A stretch of 64,000 nucleotides of DNA from Methylophaga thiooxydans DMS010. Its GTDB lineage: Bacteria > Pseudomonadota > Gammaproteobacteria > Nitrosococcales > Methylophagaceae. Of this stretch, positions 12,002 through 24,408 are shown piece by piece. The notes under the pieces were generated by a model, which was not told the DNA's origin, ran no database searches, and saw only the letters and a program-made list of their open reading frames with translations. A program made the translations under genes and the position numbers. Each line of letters opens with the position of its first letter. The stretch's first letter is position 1. Location: contig NZ_GG657897.1 of NCBI RefSeq assembly GCF_000156355.1, forward strand, positions 102,659 to 166,658, written 5' to 3'.

Positions 12002-12222
12002 CAACCATGGGGCCGGTGCGAAAACGGTAGGAACAATAGCTGGGCAACGTTAAAAACAGCAATACGGAATGTTAATTAGGGCTTTTTTTGTTTCTATACT
12101 GTTTGTAAGATAGCAATCTTTCGAACGTAACGCTTATCGTTCCTGTCTACATCAGTAATCGCTGGCACCTTTGGCACCGAACAGGTCATCATAGATGTCA
12201 GACTAAGTTAGGAGGTAGCGAT

Positions 12223-12252
12223 ATGACTAATAAGGATACATCTCAAGGATGA
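12223..12252 (+). CDS. Nine-codon leader minicistron overlapping the start of the envelope locus
   Basis: A consensus Shine-Dalgarno AGGAGG (12210-12215) stands 7 bases before an ATG at 12223. That ATG opens a 9-codon frame encoding MTNKDTSQG, whose TGA (12250-12252) overlaps the ATG (12249) of the next gene as ATGA. The large downstream gene has only an AAGG touching its own start, so its translation probably depends on ribosomes terminating on this leader. A chance frame is possible, but the SD strength and exact overlap favour a real translational-coupling device. Confidence 0.55.
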   Translation: MTNKDTSQG

Positions 12253-12806
12253 GATCGGATTACATCATCTCTGCTTTACTGTTCAGTTGCTTACTGAACG
12301 GATTTGGCTCGGCTCAAGCCCAGGATGCTATCAGCGCCAACATCGATTGCAGCGACATCAATATCGACTATGTCGATAACCCCGAGCTAACCCGCGCTGA
12401 AAAAATCGCTTTGATGGAAAAAGCGTTTTACGACTCCTTAAATAAATTCGAACTTTGTAAACTGTCTTCCCCCACGACCAGTTCATCGAATAATGGTGGT
12501 CAAGCAGGCACTGAAGGCGGAAACAGTACCGAATCTGTTGCCAGCGAAGAACTTCAAGGAACAGAGTCGGCCATGGATCCTACTGAGACTTCGTCAATGG
12601 CAGATGCGCAAACTGATGAAGACACATCAGGCACCACTAATGCACCGACTAATGGAACAACACCAGAAGACATTCCGCCAGCCGCTAATGATGATGCGAT
12701 AGCGGCACAAATACGGCTTGCAGCCGAAGCGGAGACAGACCCGGAGATTCGTAAAAAACTCTGGGATGAATACAGAAATTATAAGGGGATGAACGTTGAA
12801 CAGTGA
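12249..12806 (+). CDS. Secreted low-complexity protein, first gene of the vWA/channel envelope locus
   Basis: 185 residues; no family recognised. A signal peptide occupies residues 1-25 (hydrophobic ALLFSCLLNGFGSAQA, cleavage near AQA-QD). The mature protein begins with a small ordered part containing two Cys, runs through a Ser/Thr/Glu/Asn-rich linker (about residues 75-145) and ends in a charged helix including IRLAAEAETDPEIRKKLWDE. This suggests a periplasmic spacer or tether with a C-terminal binding helix. Its 3' end overlaps the next gene by 11 bases, so it belongs to the operon. Translation is probably coupled to the leader minicistron. Confidence 0.8.
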   Translation: MRSDYIISALLFSCLLNGFGSAQAQDAISANIDCSDINIDYVDNPELTRAEKIALMEKAFYDSLNKFELCKLSSPTTSSSNNGGQAGTEGGNSTESVASEELQGTESAMDPTETSSMADAQTDEDTSGTTNAPTNGTTPEDIPPAANDDAIAAQIRLAAEAETDPEIRKKLWDEYRNYKGMNVEQ

Positions 12807-14040
12807 CCGTTTTAGACGACCGTCTAAATTTCTTATCTACATGCTGGTGTTGATGCATGTCTTAACAGGCTGCGCCAACACCCTGACAAAATCTGATGGT
12901 GACGTGCAGACAGGGCCACAGCTATCTTCGTCGTTTGATGAAAAAACAACCGAGGTCAGTTACCAGGGACCAAAACTGGATGTCATTATTCCTGCGTTTT
13001 CTCATGGTCTGTCTGAAGATGCCGAGAATTATGAAGAAGAAGGTGTCTGGCCTGAGCTTCGTCGGGCAGAAGCAAACCGCTTTGCCTATAAACTCAAAAA
13101 AGCGTTGGATGACACGGGTAAATTTGGGGCCGTCAGAGTGACCCCCAACAACACCGCATCAGGCGATCTTTATGTCTTGGGTGAAATCATTGAGTCCAAC
13201 GGTGAAGACGTTGAGTTTGATCTCACCTTGGTTGATGCCAGTGGTAAAGAATGGCTTGATGAAACCATCCAACATGAAGTCGGTGAAGGCTTTTATAAAA
13301 ACCCCAGAAACGAAGGCAAAGACGCCTACGATCCGGCTTTTGAGCAAGCTGCAGTCGAAATCGTCGAAGCGCTTTTAGATGAAGATATTGCCGATCTGGC
13401 TGAGTTACAAAATATTGCCGAATTACGTTTTGGTGCCAGTTTTAATGATGATGCCTTCACTGAACATTTAGACACCAGCACAACACCAATACAGTTGTTA
13501 AGTATGCCGAGTGATGCCGATCCGCTTTACCAACGCATTCAATCAGTTCGGGTCAGAGAACAGCTTTTTATTGATAATTTGCAATCCAACTACAGCCAGT
13601 TTTCGAACCAGATGCAAGACAGTTACTTGCTTTGGCAAGAGGCCAGTTTCACTGAAACACAGCTTCAAAAAGAAGCCAGAAATAAAGGCTTATTGAAAAT
13701 AGCAGGTGGTGTTTTGTTAATTGCTGCAGCGGTGGCAGCCGCAGCATCTGGTAGCTCATATGACAACAACATCGGCAATGAAGTCGCTGCTATCGCCGCC
13801 GGTGTCGGTGGTGCCGCACTGATCAGCAGTGGTATCACCTCCCGCGAAGAAGCCAAATTCCATCAGGATGCGATTAATGAACTGGGCGAGTCAGCTAACC
13901 TGGAGATGTCGCCACAAGTGATACAGTTTGAAGAAGAAACTGTCGAGCTCACGGGTGATATGAATGAACAATTCCAGCAATGGCGTACATTTATGGCCCG
14001 AATGTATGCACTTGAAGCCACACCTGATAGACAACTGTAA
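12796..14040 (+). CDS. Envelope lipoprotein of the vWA/channel locus
   Basis: 414 residues from a TTG start that overlaps the preceding gene. The lipobox VLTGC (Cys about residue 26) marks a lipoprotein; the residue after Cys is Ala, compatible with outer-membrane sorting. Residues about 55-205 look like an alpha/beta domain of the TolB-N/CsgG-like kind (KLDVIIPAFS, LGEIIESNGEDVEFDLTLVD), by inference only. It is followed by a helical region and a hydrophobic Gly/Ala-rich stretch (about 300-345) that could insert in a membrane. Unrecognised overall; probably the outer-membrane end of the complex encoded by the following genes. Confidence 0.8.
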   Translation: MNSDRFRRPSKFLIYMLVLMHVLTGCANTLTKSDGDVQTGPQLSSSFDEKTTEVSYQGPKLDVIIPAFSHGLSEDAENYEEEGVWPELRRAEANRFAYKLKKALDDTGKFGAVRVTPNNTASGDLYVLGEIIESNGEDVEFDLTLVDASGKEWLDETIQHEVGEGFYKNPRNEGKDAYDPAFEQAAVEIVEALLDEDIADLAELQNIAELRFGASFNDDAFTEHLDTSTTPIQLLSMPSDADPLYQRIQSVRVREQLFIDNLQSNYSQFSNQMQDSYLLWQEASFTETQLQKEARNKGLLKIAGGVLLIAAAVAAAASGSSYDNNIGNEVAAIAAGVGGAALISSGITSREEAKFHQDAINELGESANLEMSPQVIQFEEETVELTGDMNEQFQQWRTFMARMYALEATPDRQL

Positions 14041-14049
14041 GCTGCAAAA

Positions 14050-15492
14050 ATGATTACTGAGGAAATCGCACGGGCAAAACAGGCTAAGCAAAAACGCTTA
14101 TTCACAGGGCTCATCATTGTCATCGTTTTAGGGTTACTGGCCACAGCGCTTCTCTATGTCGTTACTAATATGAGCCTGGTCAGTCCAGATGACGATTCGC
14201 AGCCAACAGACGACAACACGCCAGCAATGTCTTCAGAAACAGGACAAAAGCAAGGCAATGAGGCTGAACTCAGACAAGCCTACCTGGAAGCCTTTGCGTA
14301 CTTTGAGAACACGCTGAAACCACAGCTTGCAACTATCGATATCGTCAACTGGGACAATGCCCTATCCGACACGCTTAAACGACAGGAAAAAGAAGCCCTC
14401 AGTGCCTTTTCTGCGGGTCAGTATGCGAATGCGAAAGCGGCGATGGATGACCTCATTGCGACTGCAGAGAAAGCCATTACAGACAGCAAGTCGGCATTTG
14501 AAGAAGCAATGCAACAAGCACAATCAGCTTATCAAAATGATGACTATGATCGTGCTCGACTAGCTATTGATAACGCACAAATGCTTGATAACAGCTCACA
14601 ACAAGCACAAGCCCTGGCATCGCAAATTGAACGCATTCCACAAATAACCGATCTTAAGGAAGCGATTCGTGTAGCAAAAGTTGAAAATAACGCCAGCAAA
14701 GAACTCAGCCTGATTAACCAGTTACTCGATATCGCTCCCGACCGTACTGCTATGCAGGAGCGAGCCGATACCTTGCGTAGCCAACTGGCAGAAACTCAGT
14801 TCAGCCGTTTGATTAATCAATCCTATCGCGCCATTGAAAACCGCCAAGCGACTGAGGCTAAAAAAGCGCTCAGTGCTGCCGAAAAAATGTATCCAAGCCG
14901 TTCTGCGGTCACTGATATAAAAAAGCAAATAGCGGCACTTGACTCACAACTTCGTTTTGAAACCCATCGTGAAAACGCATTAGCGGCGGAAAAGTCCGAT
15001 GACTGGAACACGGCAAAACAACAACTCGAACTCGCCCTTAAAGAAAAACCTGCTGACAAAATGATCAGCGACAAATTTGCCGATGCCGAGCGCATTGTCA
15101 GCCTGTCACAAACACTGAAACATTTACTGGCAACCCCATACCGCTTAGCTAACCCGCAAAATAAAACCGCGGCTGATATCGCTTTAATACAATCTCAATC
15201 CTATACACAGAAAAGTCCGACACTCGCTAAAATGAGAGCTCAACTTGAATCAACCTTGCGTGCCGTCAATACACCGGTTGAAGTGACCGTGTTATCAGAT
15301 GGCAACACCTTTGTTTCCGTTCGAGGTGTTGGCAATGTCGGTACCACCACATCAAAAGTCATTGAACTCAAACCAGGTCCTTATACCTTTGAAGGCAAGC
15401 GACAAGGCTATAAATCCAAACTCGTTGAGGTCATGATCCCGCTCGACTCAAACTTTTATCAACTCCGCGTGGTGGCTGATGAACGACTTTAA
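14050..15492 (+). CDS. Inner-membrane protein with long helical periplasmic region and C-terminal PEGA-like domain
   Basis: 480 residues. A short basic N-terminus precedes one membrane helix (about 18-40, LFTGLIIVIVLGLLATALLY), placing the rest in the periplasm. Residues about 75-390 are helical and repetitive (AKAAMDDLIA, YDRARLAIDNAQ, AKKALSAAEKMYPS), resembling TPR-type solenoid units. The final 65 residues (VEVTVLSDGNTFVSV to KLVEVMIPLDS) look like a PEGA-type beta domain. The 3' end overlaps the next gene by 14 bases, showing operon membership. Probably a structural scaffold spanning part of the periplasm. No named family is asserted. Confidence 0.8.
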   Translation: MITEEIARAKQAKQKRLFTGLIIVIVLGLLATALLYVVTNMSLVSPDDDSQPTDDNTPAMSSETGQKQGNEAELRQAYLEAFAYFENTLKPQLATIDIVNWDNALSDTLKRQEKEALSAFSAGQYANAKAAMDDLIATAEKAITDSKSAFEEAMQQAQSAYQNDDYDRARLAIDNAQMLDNSSQQAQALASQIERIPQITDLKEAIRVAKVENNASKELSLINQLLDIAPDRTAMQERADTLRSQLAETQFSRLINQSYRAIENRQATEAKKALSAAEKMYPSRSAVTDIKKQIAALDSQLRFETHRENALAAEKSDDWNTAKQQLELALKEKPADKMISDKFADAERIVSLSQTLKHLLATPYRLANPQNKTAADIALIQSQSYTQKSPTLAKMRAQLESTLRAVNTPVEVTVLSDGNTFVSVRGVGNVGTTTSKVIELKPGPYTFEGKRQGYKSKLVEVMIPLDSNFYQLRVVADERL

Positions 15493-17488
15493 TCAAGCTA
15501 TTGAAGCAGCGCGTCGTAAGCAACGGCTTATGACGCTGTCTTTGCTCGCGGGGTTTGTTGTCATTGTGCTGTTGATAATGACGGTGGTGTTTGCCTCGCG
15601 AGGCACGCGTATTGAAGTATTACCTTCGGAGATCACCTCACAAGCACAGGTTAACACTGAGCGCGGCCTTGCCTTTGTTATTTATGGGCATCTTTACAGT
15701 CTGTCATCAGTTGCAGAAATTAAAGCCCAAGCCCCCGGCTTTATGCCAACAAAACAACAGCTCAGCCATGATGACTTTGGTAAAGTCACAACGATCACGC
15801 TGCAGCCACTGCCGGGCGAATTTGTCCTCACCACCTCGGCAAACACTGATGAAACCAGCTGGCTTATCAATGATGACATTGCCGCTGTCGCCAGTACCTT
15901 TCAAAAAAAGCTGGAAGCGGGTGAGTATGCGATTACTGTGAGCCACCCTTATTATGAAACAGAGTCACGCACCTATTCGGTGGATCGCGGCGAGCGAATT
16001 GAAGAACAGATTGAACTTACCCCTATTGAGCGAACAGTCAGCATCAACAGCACACCAAAAGGCGCGACCGTCAGCATTGATGATACTGAGATGGGCGAAA
16101 CGCCATTCCAGTTATCGCTTGCTGGCGGTAGACATGCCGTTGAAATTACCAAACCCGGTTTTGACCCGACGCTTGACGAAGTAGAAATTAAAAATACGGC
16201 CAACGATATCTCTAGACATTACCAACTGTCGCCCAAAAGCGCGGGCGTTAGTGTCTCCGTATCCCCTGCTGGCGGCACACTGATGCGAAATGGCAGTCCC
16301 GTTGCTATCACAGCTAAAGTCAATATCAACGCTGGTCAGAAAACCACGCTGACTTACACCAAACCCGGCTTTTTCCCACAATCGCACACCTTAACGTTAG
16401 CCGCCGATGAACAACGTGATATTAAGTTTTCTCTGCAAAAAGAGATGGGCGAGGTTGAAATCAATGCAACACCTCAGGCAACGGTAACCATCAATGGTAA
16501 AACAGCGGGGCAAACACCACTCAAGCTATCTCTCCATGCTGTCACACATGAAATTGAAGTGAGCTTGTCCGGGTATCGCAGCGTCACAAAAACCCTCACA
16601 CCATCAGCTAAATCGCCTGCAAAACTATCAATAACACTTCTCCCGGAGAAAAAAGCACGTCTGTTAGAAGCGCCGAGAACCTATCAAACTAAAGCTGGCG
16701 GTGAGATGGTGCTGTTCACGCCCAATGATAAAGTGCTTATGGGTGCCTCGCGTGGTGAACCAGGGCAACGCGCCAATGAGTTTGTTAAAACGGCCACTAT
16801 CACCAAGCCCTTTTATGCTGGCCGCCATGAAGTCACCAATGCGGCCTACTCGCAGTTTAAGCCCGATCATAAAGGCGCGGGTAATGTGCCGGTAACCTCG
16901 GTGTCTTGGTTAGATGCGGTTCAGTATGCAAACTGGTTGAGTCGTGCTGAAAACTTAACGCCCGTTTATGGGGTAACAGGCGGCAAGCTTCACTCAGTAA
17001 ATAATGATGCTGATGGCTATCGTCTACTGAGCGAAGCAGAATGGGAATGGCTGGCTCGCAAGGCGGGACGTCCCACACAGACTCAATTTGTTTGGGGAAG
17101 CAATAAAACCCTGCCGTCTAAAGCAGCCAATATTGCCGATGAATCAAGTAAAGGAAGCGTCACCACATTTGTTCCCCGTTATGATGATGGTAAACCAGGT
17201 ATCGCACCCGTCATGAGTATGCAACGTGAGTTATCAGGTTTGTTTGATATGGGCGGTAACGTCAGTGAATGGACACATGACAGTTACAACCTTAACGTGC
17301 CTCAAAAAGGCGCCGTTTTTGCTCATATGCTGGATACGAAAACAACAGGAATGCGCGTGGTTAAAGGCGCAAACTGGCGCTCTGGTACGCTAACGGAACT
17401 ACGAGCTTCTTTTCGCGAAGGTTTAGTGGAAACCAGAGATGATCTAGGCTTTCGATTAGGCCGTTTTCTCTACGGAGGTAACGAATAA
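15479..17488 (+). CDS. PEGA-repeat inner-membrane protein with C-terminal FGE-sulfatase-like domain
   Basis: 669 residues. One membrane helix (about 18-40) is followed by periplasmic beta-rich repeats of PEGA type at about 180-250, 255-330 and 335-400 (for example SINSTPKGATVSIDDTEMGE and EINATPQATVTINGKTAGQ). Residues about 410-665 form a formylglycine-generating-enzyme (SUMF1/PvdO-like) fold: GRHEVTNAAYSQF, PVTSVSWLDAVQYANWLS, YRLLSEAEWEWLARKAG, GLFDMGGNVSEWTHDSY and DDLGFRLGR. I see no cysteine in the protein, so the copper/cysteine oxidase activity of true FGE is excluded; a binding role is more likely. Same operon as its neighbours. Confidence 0.88.
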   Translation: MNDFNQAIEAARRKQRLMTLSLLAGFVVIVLLIMTVVFASRGTRIEVLPSEITSQAQVNTERGLAFVIYGHLYSLSSVAEIKAQAPGFMPTKQQLSHDDFGKVTTITLQPLPGEFVLTTSANTDETSWLINDDIAAVASTFQKKLEAGEYAITVSHPYYETESRTYSVDRGERIEEQIELTPIERTVSINSTPKGATVSIDDTEMGETPFQLSLAGGRHAVEITKPGFDPTLDEVEIKNTANDISRHYQLSPKSAGVSVSVSPAGGTLMRNGSPVAITAKVNINAGQKTTLTYTKPGFFPQSHTLTLAADEQRDIKFSLQKEMGEVEINATPQATVTINGKTAGQTPLKLSLHAVTHEIEVSLSGYRSVTKTLTPSAKSPAKLSITLLPEKKARLLEAPRTYQTKAGGEMVLFTPNDKVLMGASRGEPGQRANEFVKTATITKPFYAGRHEVTNAAYSQFKPDHKGAGNVPVTSVSWLDAVQYANWLSRAENLTPVYGVTGGKLHSVNNDADGYRLLSEAEWEWLARKAGRPTQTQFVWGSNKTLPSKAANIADESSKGSVTTFVPRYDDGKPGIAPVMSMQRELSGLFDMGGNVSEWTHDSYNLNVPQKGAVFAHMLDTKTTGMRVVKGANWRSGTLTELRASFREGLVETRDDLGFRLGRFLYGGNE

Positions 17489-17625
17489 TGCGCACCAAAA
17501 AATTTGTCTTATCAACGCTTGTTATCGTCGTTTTACTGCTCGCTTCAACGATGCTCCATAACGTCTACGCAGGTAAACCTTTTATCAGTCTTAACGCCCC
17601 TGTTTCCTTTCCTGTGGATATTTAA
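17488..17625 (+). CDS. 45-residue membrane/secreted small protein within the locus
   Basis: Starts at an ATG overlapping the stop of the preceding gene (TAATG at 17486-17490) with GGAGG-like sequence 11 bases upstream, and ends 3 bases before the channel-subunit gene. The product has basic residues, a hydrophobic stretch (FVLSTLVIVVLLLAS) and a short tail KPFISLNAPVSFPVDI. It may be a single-pass microprotein or a signal peptide with a 15-20 residue mature peptide. Tight packing between two operon genes argues that it is real. No family recognised. Confidence 0.65.
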   Translation: MRTKKFVLSTLVIVVLLLASTMLHNVYAGKPFISLNAPVSFPVDI

Positions 17626-17628
17626 ATC

Positions 17629-18417
17629 ATGCAAGACACACTCAAAAACTTTGCGGCATTAGTCGTATCTTTAATCGTCGTGCATATGATTTATATTGGT
17701 TATATCCGGCCAGAAGCCGCACAGCTTATGGAGTATGCCTTAGCCCAAGGCCAGTCATCACCACGGGATATTGTCGTTATTATCAAAGACTATGAGCAGG
17801 AAATTTGTTTCATCTTAATGTTCTGGGGCTGTTTTTTAATAGCTGGCGCTTACCGTGAGATCCTAAAAACCAAATACCTTTACAGTGTTGATCTGATCAA
17901 AGATGTCCGTATTGACACTGATAACCCTGAAACTAATGGCGCCCGCCATGATTTAGATGTGAACGGGATCATCGACCGGCTGGATAAAGAGATCCCCCAG
18001 GATTGCATGAAATCGCCGCTGGTTCACACTTTACGCTCATCATTATGGCGCTACAGCTCAACCGATAACGTGCAAAATCTATCTGATGCCATTGAGAGCA
18101 ATTTAGAGGCCTTAGCCGTGAAGCAAGACTCTGAAAACACAATGATTCGCTATCTGATCTGGGCAATACCTTCGATTGGTTTTATTGGCACTGTACGCGG
18201 TATCGGGCAAGCATTATCTCAAGCCGACGAAGCATTAGCCGGAGATATCTCGGGCATGACCGACAGTCTGGGCGTTGCATTTAACTCAACGCTGGTCGCC
18301 CTGCTTATCAGTATCTTTTTAATGTTTTTATTCCACCAACTGCAACGCTTGCAGGACAGTCAGATAGTCGATACCCAGGACTACTGCGATAAATACCTTT
18401 TACGGCGAATCAGGTAA
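17629..18417 (+). CDS. MotA/TolQ/ExbB-family proton channel subunit
   Basis: 262 residues. Four hydrophobic helices are visible at about 8-26, 58-75, 172-196 and 213-236, with a cytoplasmic loop of roughly 95 residues between helices 2 and 3, the layout of MotA/ExbB-type channel proteins. Helix 3 carries the family signature IPSIGFIGTVRGIGQAL, and helix 4 the conserved small/Thr face GVAFNSTLVALLIS. Such proteins form pentamers around a dimer of single-helix partners (ExbD, TolR, MotB) and use proton or sodium flow to move them. No ExbD/MotB gene adjoins; the next two genes encode vWA proteins whose N-terminal helices could play that part. Confidence 0.92.
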   Translation: MQDTLKNFAALVVSLIVVHMIYIGYIRPEAAQLMEYALAQGQSSPRDIVVIIKDYEQEICFILMFWGCFLIAGAYREILKTKYLYSVDLIKDVRIDTDNPETNGARHDLDVNGIIDRLDKEIPQDCMKSPLVHTLRSSLWRYSSTDNVQNLSDAIESNLEALAVKQDSENTMIRYLIWAIPSIGFIGTVRGIGQALSQADEALAGDISGMTDSLGVAFNSTLVALLISIFLMFLFHQLQRLQDSQIVDTQDYCDKYLLRRIR

Positions 18418-18423
18418 TCAAGT

Positions 18424-19488
18424 TTGGCACATAAAAGTCGACGCGCAGAAGGCTCCAACCTTGCCTTTCTGGACATTATGTCCTGTGGGCTGGGCGCCGT
18501 TATTTTAGTGTTTATGCTGGTCAAACAAAATATTGCCGACGCACCTGCCGAAATAGATAACCTGAAACAAGATATCAGCACACTGGAGCAGGCAAGAGAT
18601 GAGGCTCAGCAAAACCTCGCGGAGCTACGCGCCCGACTCAAAAAAGAAAATGTGGATCTGGCGGCGATGGGCCGCGACTTCAAGCAACAGCGTGATGATC
18701 TCGAAGGTAAAAAAACCGCCCTACAGCAAGCCACTTCTGAGCTTGATGCGTTGAAAGAGACTATTACTCAAATCCCCGCTCCAACGAAAGAGGATTTGGT
18801 TGAAAGCCAACAAATCAATGAAGAAAACTACCTGTTAGGGCTTAAGGTCGAGGGAGACAAAATCGCCATTTTGGTCGATGTCAGCGCATCGATGACCCAT
18901 GAAAAACTGATCGACATTATCAAAACCAAAAGTGGGTCTCAGCAAGGCAAGCTCGCTGCTGAAAAATGGTTACGCACCAGACGGGTCGTCGAATGGCTGT
19001 TAGCCAGATTGCCAAAAACCAGTCAGGTGGTCGTTATTGCCTATAGTGAAGACGCCCGTCAGCTAGGTGGAAAAGGTTGGATGACAGCCAAGGCATCCAA
19101 CACAGTGTCATCTATTATCAATGAATTAAAAACTATCGTGCCTGAAGGCGCGACGAACTTGCAGAAGGGACTCAACGTTGCCAAATCGTTTGCGCCCAGC
19201 AATTATTATGTCATCACCGATGGGCTTCCCACTAAAGGTGAGTCTCGCTATAAAAGCCTGAATCCGTTTTCGAGTTGTGGTTCATTAACTGGCACAGCAA
19301 AAACCATTTCGGGCGAATGTCGTAAGCGCTTATTTAAGCAGACCGTGAGTGAAAGCGGCCCCAAAAGCGCGCAAGTCGATATCGTACTACTGCCTTTAGA
19401 AGGCGACCCTGAAGCTGCCTATGAATACTGGTTATGGGCATCCAGCACACAAGGCTTAGTCATCAGTCCCGCGAGTAACTGGCCATGA
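18424..19488 (+). CDS. von Willebrand factor A protein with motor-partner-like N-terminal helix (copy 1)
   Basis: 354 residues from a TTG start 6 bases after the channel gene. Residues 1-12 are basic. A membrane helix follows at about 13-34 with FLDIMSCGLGAVILVFML, placing Asp17 near its start. Residues 42-120 are a coiled coil. A vWA domain fills the rest with a complete MIDAS: ILVDVSASM (DxSxS), GATNLQKGL (Thr) and VITDGLP (Asp). It is therefore a periplasmic, divalent-cation-dependent binding module on a stalk. The helix shares its layout with ExbD/MotB helices, whose Asp carries protons. Its end overlaps the next gene by 4 bases. Confidence 0.88.
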   Translation: MAHKSRRAEGSNLAFLDIMSCGLGAVILVFMLVKQNIADAPAEIDNLKQDISTLEQARDEAQQNLAELRARLKKENVDLAAMGRDFKQQRDDLEGKKTALQQATSELDALKETITQIPAPTKEDLVESQQINEENYLLGLKVEGDKIAILVDVSASMTHEKLIDIIKTKSGSQQGKLAAEKWLRTRRVVEWLLARLPKTSQVVVIAYSEDARQLGGKGWMTAKASNTVSSIINELKTIVPEGATNLQKGLNVAKSFAPSNYYVITDGLPTKGESRYKSLNPFSSCGSLTGTAKTISGECRKRLFKQTVSESGPKSAQVDIVLLPLEGDPEAAYEYWLWASSTQGLVISPASNWP

Positions 19489-20435
19489 AACGGCGGCATA
19501 AAAGTTTAGATATTTTCAGCCTGTCTTTTCTTGATGTTATCTCCTGCGGCTTTGGTGCCGTTGTGATGTTAATTTTAATTGCTAAAACAGATGTTGAATC
19601 TTCTGTTGCTGGTGCTGATGAGGTGAGTTCGCTGTTAGCATCGTTGATCAGCCTGCAAAACTCAGTGACAGAGATTCAGCAAGAGATGGACGCCGACTTA
19701 AATACCTTGCAACAACTCTCTGGCCAAAAGCAATCAGTGGCACAAGCCTCACAAGCTCTGGAAAACCAGCGCCAGTCACTCGAGCAAAAAAATGCTTCTA
19801 TTGCTGAACGTATCTCAGGGTTAAGCCTTGTCGAGGAAAGACTGAAACAAGCGTCATTGAGCACACCACAAAGGCCCAACAATGAACGTGATATTGAAGT
19901 GGGCGGCATACCTGTCGACAGTGATTATGTTGTTTTCATTGTCGATACCTCGGGCAGTATGAAAAGTATCTGGGGAAGCGTGTCAAAAGAAGTGATCAAT
20001 GTGCTCAATATTCATCCGGAAGTAAAAGGCTTTCAGATCCTGAATGATATGGGTAAGCCCCTTATTTCAGGCTACGATGGAAAATGGATCCCGGATACAG
20101 CAAGCAGACGACAAAGTGTGATTGCGCTATTCAAAAAATGGAATGCCTTATCTAACTCAAGTCCGGTTGAAGGCTTAACTGTGGCACTGCGAAAATACGC
20201 CAAACCAAATATTACGACCTCCATCTACGTATTTGGTGATGAATACTCCGGTGGCGGGTATGATGCTGTGATTAATACCGTGGCAAAAGAAAACCGCACC
20301 CTCAGCTCTGGTCGTAAGCTTGCCAAAATCCACGCCGTTGGCTTTATTTCGGCGGGCACCACGGACAGATTTAGCGTTTTAATGCGAGAAATGACCCAAC
20401 AAAATGACGGTACCTTTATCGCTCTGCCAAGATAG
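19485..20435 (+). CDS. von Willebrand factor A protein with motor-partner-like N-terminal helix (copy 2)
   Basis: 316 residues, overlapping the previous gene by ATGA. The basic start and helix FLDVISCGFGAVVMLILI again place Asp at residue 17, exactly as in copy 1. A coiled coil spans about 45-120. The vWA domain begins with YVVFIVDTSGSM (DxSxS intact). The position of the MIDAS Thr reads SNSSPVEGL (Ser instead), and the third motif is VFGDEYSGGG, so metal binding may differ from copy 1. The two vWA proteins look like ancient paralogues that could form a heterodimer in the centre of the channel. Last gene of the locus. Confidence 0.88.
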   Translation: MKRRHKSLDIFSLSFLDVISCGFGAVVMLILIAKTDVESSVAGADEVSSLLASLISLQNSVTEIQQEMDADLNTLQQLSGQKQSVAQASQALENQRQSLEQKNASIAERISGLSLVEERLKQASLSTPQRPNNERDIEVGGIPVDSDYVVFIVDTSGSMKSIWGSVSKEVINVLNIHPEVKGFQILNDMGKPLISGYDGKWIPDTASRRQSVIALFKKWNALSNSSPVEGLTVALRKYAKPNITTSIYVFGDEYSGGGYDAVINTVAKENRTLSSGRKLAKIHAVGFISAGTTDRFSVLMREMTQQNDGTFIALPR

Positions 20436-22338: not shown

Positions 22339-24408
22339 ATGAAGCACTCAAAAAATTCGTTTAAATATCGATATATTTCAAAAAATATATCCAAATACCT
22401 ATTCGCCTTTAGCATTTTCCCTCTGACGCCGGTGTTCGCCAGCGAACAACCGGTTTACGAACTCTCAAATATCGTGGTCAACGCAGAAGCTGAGTCAGGG
22501 ACTGTTTATCAGGTCGATCAAGACGATATTGAATTGATAGGAGCCAGAAGCTTGGAAGATGCATTGCGCCTATCACCCAGCACCAATGTTCGCTATGGTG
22601 GTGATGGCACGCCACGTATGGATATCCGAGGTCTAAGAACCCGGCAGATTAAACTCCTGGTTAACGGCGTACCCTTTAACTCCACCTTTGATGGCCAATT
22701 CGACCCCAGCTTGATTCCTGCCTTCGGCATAGGAAGGGTTGATCTTAATGTCGGCAGTTCCTCAGTGCTTTATGGCGATGGGGGTATGGCTGGCGTTATT
22801 GATATAAAAACACGCGCGATGGGACAAGGGTTTAATGCGACGACTAAAGTTGAGCGTGGCAGTGATGACTTCTGGCTCGCCAATGGCCAAGTTGGCTATG
22901 GCGATGCGGATCAAGACTTCTTCTTTGGCTACGGTGTACGAGATCGCGACGCCTTTTCAGTCTCTAACGATTTTTCCAGCACTCTCACAGCAGATGCTGA
23001 AAATTTTCAAGACAGTAACGATCGTAACAACAGTGATAACCGCCGCGAAAACCTTGTGTTAAGTTATTACCGTCATCTAACGGAGAAGTTAACGGTTGGT
23101 ATCTTCGCCACCTATTTGGAAGGCGAGTACGGCAAACCACCGATCACGCTTGATAACAGCGTAGATGATTTTGCCCAACGTGCACGCTTTGAACGCGTCG
23201 AATCTCAACACGGTTACACCATTCAAGTTGGCGCAGACTACGATTTCACCGATAACTGGATCGGTAAATTATGGTTCTTCGATAACCAATTAGAGGAACG
23301 CACCGCCAGCTACGACACACTATCGCTTAACACGATCAGCTCAAACAACACGTTTCGTCGTACCGAAGAAACACAATTAAGAGGCTTTCACAGCCAACTC
23401 TCTGGTTTATTACCTGAGACTGCGACCCAACTCGCCTTTAGCATTGATCATCGCAACGAAATTTATGATGAGAATGGTATCGAATGCAACATCTCTTCCG
23501 GTGGCGGTGGCGGTGGCGGTGGCGGTGGCGGTGGCGGTGGCGCACCTTGCCCAACCACAGCCTATGATTCAACAATGACTGATGAAGATCTGTCTGTGCA
23601 GTCTTACGCCTTCGAGGTCACTCAGCCATTACCCTTTAATGTCACCGCAACCGTAGGCATAGGTCATCATAAATTAAATATCGATGGTGCCAGTGATGAA
23701 ACAGCAAGCAGCGCACAATTTGCATTAAGCAAAGCACTAACATCGATCACTCGCATTTATGGCAGTGTGGCAAGAAAAGTTGATGCCCCCACCATCAGAC
23801 AACTTTTTGAACAAGATGCAGGTAATCCAGCACTAGGGTTTCAACGCGCTAAGCATTATGAAATAGGCCTCAGAAATCGCTGGCAGCAGGGCAGCTTGGA
23901 TATCGCGGTTTGGCAATCGGATATTGATGACTTTATCGAACGCGATGACACAACAGACTTATTTGAAAATCGTGATGAGCTAAGATTCAAAGGTGTCGAT
24001 ATCTCGGGCAGTTATCAGCTAACGCCGAAGTTCACGGTTAACGCCGGCATCGGTTTCCTGGACGCTGAAGATACATCATCGAATGCGGCATCGAAGCAGT
24101 TGCAGTATCGTCCTACACACAAAGCAACGCTGCAAACGGTGTATACAATGTCACCGCGCTGGCAGTTAAGTGGTGATATCACCCGAGTCGGCTCGCAAAA
24201 TTACTTCAACCGTAATGATGCGTCAGAGCGGCGTAAGCTGGACAGCTTTGAACTGGTCAATACGCGCCTAAAATACACGGTTCCCAATGGGGCAGCCGAT
24301 GTTTATGTCGGCATTGAAAACCTGTTTGATGAGGATTATGAAACCAGTTATGGTTATCCACAAGCTGGCCGGTTTCTCTATACGGGCATGAACATTCGTT
24401 GGCATTAA
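22339..24408 (+). CDS. TonB-dependent outer-membrane receptor
   Basis: 689 residues. The N-terminal signal peptide ends near TPVFAS. The plug domain spans about 45-155 (SLEDALRLSPSTNVRYGGDG, MDIRGLRTRQIKLLVNGVP, SSSVLYGDGGMAGVIDIKT). The beta-barrel extends to a C-terminal aromatic strand RFLYTGMNIRWH, with the receptor motif ENLFDEDYETSYGYPQAGR near the end. A Cys-flanked loop holds fourteen consecutive glycines encoded by a hexanucleotide repeat. The substrate cannot be read from the sequence. The downstream TupA-like lipoprotein and upstream ModE-type protein point to molybdate or tungstate, possibly chelated. The SD region AAGG precedes the ATG. Confidence 0.92.
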   Translation: MKHSKNSFKYRYISKNISKYLFAFSIFPLTPVFASEQPVYELSNIVVNAEAESGTVYQVDQDDIELIGARSLEDALRLSPSTNVRYGGDGTPRMDIRGLRTRQIKLLVNGVPFNSTFDGQFDPSLIPAFGIGRVDLNVGSSSVLYGDGGMAGVIDIKTRAMGQGFNATTKVERGSDDFWLANGQVGYGDADQDFFFGYGVRDRDAFSVSNDFSSTLTADAENFQDSNDRNNSDNRRENLVLSYYRHLTEKLTVGIFATYLEGEYGKPPITLDNSVDDFAQRARFERVESQHGYTIQVGADYDFTDNWIGKLWFFDNQLEERTASYDTLSLNTISSNNTFRRTEETQLRGFHSQLSGLLPETATQLAFSIDHRNEIYDENGIECNISSGGGGGGGGGGGGGGAPCPTTAYDSTMTDEDLSVQSYAFEVTQPLPFNVTATVGIGHHKLNIDGASDETASSAQFALSKALTSITRIYGSVARKVDAPTIRQLFEQDAGNPALGFQRAKHYEIGLRNRWQQGSLDIAVWQSDIDDFIERDDTTDLFENRDELRFKGVDISGSYQLTPKFTVNAGIGFLDAEDTSSNAASKQLQYRPTHKATLQTVYTMSPRWQLSGDITRVGSQNYFNRNDASERRKLDSFELVNTRLKYTVPNGAADVYVGIENLFDEDYETSYGYPQAGRFLYTGMNIRWH
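23500..23541 (+). repeat. (GGTGGC)7 hexanucleotide tract inside the TonB receptor gene
   Basis: Seven uninterrupted copies of GGTGGC encode 14 glycines between two Cys (CNISS before, APC after). The unit is a multiple of three, so slippage would change loop length without breaking the frame. Confidence 0.97.

Follow-up and report, generated by a model that had tools for sequence, protein, structure and literature searches.

The window, a 64,000-nucleotide stretch of the 3.05-Mb genome of Methylophaga thiooxydans DMS010 (contig C11), holds eight plus-strand ORFs between positions 12249 and 20435, listed here as g1 to g8 (Table 1); the closest named relatives at this cassette are Methylophaga species, at 68% identity. 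All of the ORFs that an earlier sequence-only reading had described as tightly packed or overlapping on one strand exist, and successive junctions from g1 to g8 measure -11, +9, -14, -1, +3, +6 and -4 bases. That reading set the start of the locus at 12210, where there is an AGGAGG motif and not a start codon; the first ORF begins at 12249. The strong AGGAGG stands ahead of a 9-codon ORF (12223-12252) whose stop codon shares an ATGA with the g1 start, and this ORF with its AGGAGG showed no conservation in relatives. A promoter scan returned 3 promoter-like sites versus 11 expected, none of them upstream of g1. Beyond the cassette, a TonB-dependent receptor gene (22339-24408) contains CGGTGG repeated 7.3 times in perfect tandem (window positions 23499-23542), which encodes a run of glycines and whose copy number may differ between cells.

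Table 1. Genes of the cassette, with positions in the window.
Gene	Position	Strand	Product	Remarks
g1	12249..12806	+	Secreted, acidic, low-complexity protein, 185 aa	Signal peptide by eye
g2	12796..14040	+	Lipoprotein, 414 aa, probably outer membrane	Lipobox LTGC, invariant Cys26 followed by Ala
g3	14050..15492	+	Single-pass inner-membrane protein, periplasmic TPR-type repeats, C-terminal PEGA-like domain, 480 aa	
g4	15479..17488	+	Single-pass inner-membrane protein, PEGA repeats, C-terminal FGE-fold domain without catalytic cysteines, 669 aa	
g5	17488..17625	+	Single-helix membrane protein, 45 aa, conserved C-terminus ISLN.PVSFPVDI	
g6	17629..18417	+	MotA/TolQ/ExbB-type channel subunit, 262 aa, invariant Thr188 and Thr221	
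g7 (vWA1)	18424..19488	+	N-terminal Asp17 helix, coiled coil, vWA domain with DxSxS, 354 aa	TTG start
g8 (vWA2)	19485..20435	+	Paralogue of g7: Asp17 helix, coiled coil, vWA domain with DTSGS, 316 aa	

The cassette is inherited as a set. Since all eight genes, the 45-residue g5 included, recur in the same order in 18/18 intact loci of the family, they form a conserved unit and not a chance assembly; a 19th family locus, on a short contig, is partial and has both vWA genes together. The neighbouring genes differ between loci: within the genus, no more than five genomes have the upstream DUF2238 gene, and the ModE-like gene found downstream in the window is sited elsewhere in relatives. A search of the order found the vWA pair in 20 of 63 genomes. 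Among family members in both surveys, the PEGA-FGE gene occurred in 15/15 vWA-positive versus 1/20 vWA-negative genomes, counts that are not independent of phylogeny; the sole vWA-negative genome with the gene is a 55%-complete assembly.

Conserved co-occurrence across Gammaproteobacteria, a check proposed in the earlier reading, was borne out at the level of the class: of 369 gammaproteobacterial genomes sampled, 31 proved to have the cassette in a search with a g8 profile. Loci were annotated for 29 of the 30 other matching genomes, and wherever the contig was long enough the genes ran g1-g2-g3-g4-(small protein)-g6-g7-g8, apart from an occasional gap or split gene; in two loci of one family (f92), the channel gene comes after vWA2. 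Nine further loci agree, two of them gammaproteobacterial and seven from f208, a family of another class in the same phylum. There are about 45 loci in all. The cassette is known from no fewer than 19 families of Gammaproteobacteria, plus f208 in the other class.

Gene content varies among lineages. Outside the Methylophaga family, an additional protein of ~430-460 residues is encoded in many versions between the channel and vWA1 (for example L088 9247-10539, L103 8706-10070 and L105 8954-10240), which is absent from the window's family; it has a clear FHA domain in L103, and by eye its N-terminal portion resembles actin/Hsp70. Downstream of the cassette, other lineages encode two lipoproteins and an M48 metallopeptidase (L088 5169-7147, L107 5597-8782), possibly as further parts of the system. 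Because other lineages carry more genes, the window's version is a small one.

The channel subunit of the earlier reading is g6, which matches Pfam MotA_ExbB (PF01618) at 8e-14 and keeps key MotA/TolQ/ExbB residues. Its Thr188 and Thr221 do not vary among 26 sequences and, in a weak match (E 0.22, PDB), align with threonines of TolQ on the same two helices; no PDB relative of g6 was found at E 0.1 or better. The TolQ threonines at those two helix positions line the pore. PMC12204202 likewise makes use of the pore-lining TolQ threonines.

Both predicted vWA proteins are genuine. The vWA domain of g7 matches VWA_2 (Pfam, 4e-9); g8 alone falls under the Pfam VWA cut-off (0.057), and its vWA identity is confirmed by relatives that match Pfam VWA, by profile comparison with vWA1 (E 1.7e-28) and by its DxSxS motif, a metal-site signature that is kept in both families. 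Each protein opens with a short basic stretch followed by one membrane helix, [SA]FLDxxxCGxGA, in which all 26 sequences per vWA family have Phe15, Asp17, Cys21 and Gly24, and the His of the SHLS motif is absent. Several loci seemed to have lost the Asp, but this proved to be an artefact of unusual start codons, the residue being present in frame. In locus L110 and the f208 loci (L124-L130) no in-frame ATG, GTG or TTG lies upstream of the vWA1 Asp, and vWA1 there likely uses an unusual start codon. A TTG or unusual start may lower the yield of vWA1 relative to vWA2.

In a tree, vWA1 and vWA2 are reciprocally monophyletic on long branches with 100/100 support; judged by their sequences, they are two old sister families of distant paralogues. 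The two genes occur together in 28 of the 31 matching genomes, and of the other three, two were cut by contig ends and one was left out. This pairing of two distinct families suggests a heterodimeric axle in a 5:2 motor, for which one vWA1 and one vWA2 per motor would be the simplest reading. The transpore helix is the best-conserved stretch of each protein (mean pairwise identity 0.66 vs 0.38 for the rest of g7, and 0.69 vs 0.41 for g8), far above the poorly conserved membrane anchors of g3 and g4 (0.20 and 0.17), which is the pattern expected of a helix packed inside a conserved pore. An AF2 model of g8, built on a four-row alignment of the window and three Methylophaga loci, had a pLDDT of 45.

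From these features we consider it fairly probable that the cassette encodes a trans-envelope, ion-driven rotary motor that has a vWA heterodimer as its axle and is supplied with envelope partners by its own operon. Five g6 subunits would form the channel, and g7 and g8 would each contribute one membrane helix to an axle standing in for the ExbD/TolR/MotB dimer, with the putative ion-binding Asp17 of each helix facing the threonine ring of g6 (Thr188, Thr221). Ion flow would turn the axle, and a coiled coil of ~85 residues would carry the two vWA heads, each with an intact DxSxS, across the periplasm, where they might grip and move the envelope partners g4, g3 and g2. The FGE fold of g4 would serve as a docking part, as in PorK of the T9SS. 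We infer the 5:2 stoichiometry, the heterodimer, its rotation, the identity of the ion, the contacts between motor and partners and the output at the outer membrane or surface; a task at one of these two sites is our best guess for what the machine does in the cell. The sequence-only reading had already proposed the vWA pair as the periplasmic moving part, and the invariant Asp17 helices, with no ExbD gene nearby, make it the most likely candidate. The distances of six cassette genes correlate in all pairs (r 0.92-0.96), which speaks for the motor reading but would also be expected from shared ancestry. The weak PDB match of g6 to TolQ weighs against it, though the Pfam match is strong.

The candidate partners differ in how far they can be classified. 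The secreted protein, the lipoprotein and the 45-residue protein of the earlier reading correspond to g1, g2 and g5. In the 18/18 intact family loci that contain it, g1 is 37-54% identical and has a conserved C-terminal motif (DIP.A.NDD.iA.QIR.AAE...kLW.EYR.YKG), and it matches no Pfam family. The Cys26 of g2 is invariant in 22 sequences; no relative of this protein was found in Pfam, NCBIfam or the PDB (E 0.1 or better), and its AF2 model, from the same four-row alignment of the window and three Methylophaga loci, reached a pLDDT of 35. g5 was found in 18/18 intact family loci at E 1e-7 to 1e-15. Two PEGA proteins had been proposed: g4 has three units recognized by Pfam (PEGA, 6e-35), whereas none of the 18 members of g3 has a Pfam PEGA match, and the assignment of g3 comes from profile comparison of its C-terminus (86% probability vs <=3% in the ten column shuffles listed). 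TPR families were matched in up to 10 of the 18 g3 members.

The FGE-like domain of g4 is likewise real (FGE-sulfatase, 7e-33, Pfam), although it requires a correction: the domain is enzyme-dead and resembles PorK/GldK of the T9SS. It has 0-1 cysteines in 22 g4 members and none in the window protein. Without the two catalytic cysteines of a formylglycine-generating enzyme, the usual two-cysteine formylglycine chemistry is impossible, and from its sequence the domain is no longer an enzyme. Its named relatives include GldK, PorK structures, FGE enzymes and a structure whose deposited name is CotH. PorK itself is reported to use a repurposed FGE fold without catalytic cysteines as a docking hub in a PorLM-driven ring (PMC12421860).

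This resemblance raises the question of whether the cassette is an export or surface-assembly machine like the T9SS core (PorKLMN), in which the motor would drive an outer-membrane ring of FGE-fold subunits. Such a machine would be a more specific form of the motor reading, to which it adds an output. It is consistent with the occurrence of a dead FGE domain close to PorK/GldK and a pmf motor in one operon, and with the presence of a lipoprotein and a TPR partner. However, no protein of the cassette matches a GldL, GldM or GldN model, g4 is membrane-anchored and not a lipoprotein, and no substrates or translocon are linked to the locus. We regard this output as somewhat unlikely.

A second alternative concerns the partner of the channel. 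In 23 genomes with the cassette, its surroundings out to 7 kb contain no ExbD-family gene (PF02472), so the earlier observation that ExbD/TolR/MotB is absent stands for the locus; the single-helix partner is nevertheless present, since an ExbD-like Asp helix is part of the vWA proteins, which apparently replace ExbD/TolR/MotB in that role. Comparison of the transpore helices with the ExbD profile gave probabilities of 1-2%, no better than control helices, and because this comparison gives no signal, the proposed equivalence with ExbD rests on the position of the helix, its Asp and the missing ExbD gene. Alternatively, g6 could pair with an ExbD/TolR encoded elsewhere, leaving the vWA proteins as side-bound transducers like TonB or TolA. 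Each of the 23 cassette genomes has 2-8 ExbD-family genes elsewhere, the other vWA family of PMC12204202 is predicted there to bind in this way, and undetectable homology to ExbD would also fit. Yet a side-bound transducer would not explain a helix with an invariant Asp and without the His of the SHLS motif, the co-occurrence of two unlike Asp-bearing copies, the lack of a linked tolR-like gene, or helix conservation so far above that of simple anchors. Transducers bound at the side of the channel are thus improbable, and an axle inside it is the reading we retain.

The distribution of the cassette suggests mobility. In family f120, the version in G180 (locus L083) is close to the Methylophaga-family one, while those in G295 and G392 are distant. 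In the vWA2 tree, moreover, f208 sequences nest within the gammaproteobacterial ones; from this mixture and this nesting, the cassette likely spreads horizontally as one unit. A plasmid search did not find it. In G051 (L036 12025-15998), the genes for the ABC permease and DUF2238, upstream in the window, are downstream and face the other way, as would result from an inversion of either the cassette or its flank.

Patchy distribution with likely horizontal transfer, together with the fact that the only PADLOC matches of g6 are ZorA models (1.5e-4), could point to a Zorya-like anti-phage system whose pmf motor senses invasion from the envelope and triggers effectors, but this is very improbable, as there is no ZorB-type peptidoglycan-binding domain and no effector gene, the cassette is mostly periplasmic and was not found on plasmids, and PADLOC matched only a generic ABC-transporter ATPase among ten flank proteins of the window and nothing among ten flank proteins of other loci. 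A defence context was rejected for want of effectors or defence neighbours in these PADLOC scans of the flanks.

The cassette is probably a conserved, horizontally spread, pmf-driven envelope motor. To our knowledge, in every 5:2 motor with a solved structure the axle is a homodimer. If the axle here is an obligate heterodimer, this would show that the two ion sites and the two periplasmic arms can differ, with a bearing on how rotation and force are coupled. By analogy, the enzyme-dead domain of g4 beside such a motor also suggests that the use of an FGE fold to receive mechanical drive from a pmf motor, as in PorK, either evolved in or reached bacteria other than Bacteroidota. Cultured strains of Methylophaga are among the carriers, and in these deletion and point-mutant tests look practical.

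Compared with the ExbBD, TolQR and MotAB 5:2 motors, the cassette shares the PF01618 channel with its two conserved threonines and an Asp near the start of the partner helix; it differs in having neither PF02472 nor MotB, with two different vWA proteins apparently in the role of the B subunit. With Zorya ZorAB it has in common a pmf motor with a single-helix partner and a weak ZorA profile match, whereas the ZorB-type domain, effectors and defence context of Zorya are absent.

The closest likeness in motor design is to the TPH-vWA/TolQ-like motors predicted in Proteobacteria (PMC12204202; Mol Biol Evol 2025, msaf138, Fig. 4c,d). As described there, these comprise heterologous pairs of vWA proteins with Asp-bearing transpore helices, tightly linked to tolQ-like genes and without tolR/exbD, and AF3 places the vWA helices inside the channel pentamer. 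The cassette shares a channel gene adjoining the vWA genes (after vWA2 in two loci), no tolR/exbD within 7 kb (23 genomes), two heterologous vWA genes, a conserved-Asp transpore helix without SHLS and a conserved Thr ring in the channel, a likeness in the features described by that paper, which used Idiomarina loihiensis proteins. The motor core, a TolQ-like channel with an unlike vWA pair, was already predicted in 2025, and the sequence-only reading's statement that no named system has this set does not hold for the core. For the PEGA, FGE and small partners it does hold against the main text of that paper, in which the words 'PEGA', 'SUMF1' and 'formylglycine' are absent and the partner types g1, g2, g3, g4 and g5 go unmentioned. 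In the open-access literature, a recent review of Ton/Tol motors and a phylogeny of MotAB stators do not mention vWA, and the non-core parts (g1-g5) appear to be undescribed.

With the T9SS PorKLMN/GldKLMN, the cassette shares a pmf motor and an FGE-fold protein lacking both catalytic cysteines. The axle of the T9SS is GldM/PorM, whereas that proposed here is a vWA heterodimer; furthermore, g4 is anchored in the inner membrane with PEGA repeats and has no lipobox, its FGE domain scores below the GldK equivalog cut-off in NCBIfam (1.2e-21, 77.6 bits, cut-off 350), and the cassette is without GldL, GldM and GldN (ten proteins scanned), Sov and cargo genes. Membership of the T9SS fails because GldL, GldM, GldN and a lipoprotein anchor were not found, and the likeness of g4 to PorK is one of working principle, drawn by analogy. 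Tentatively, and with rather less than even confidence, we suggest a distinct machine of Proteobacteria, a 5:2 motor in which an obligate vWA heterodimer with metal-site heads would drive an outer-membrane assembly of dead FGE and PEGA domains. If true, this machine would correspond mechanically to the T9SS core while being made of different parts.
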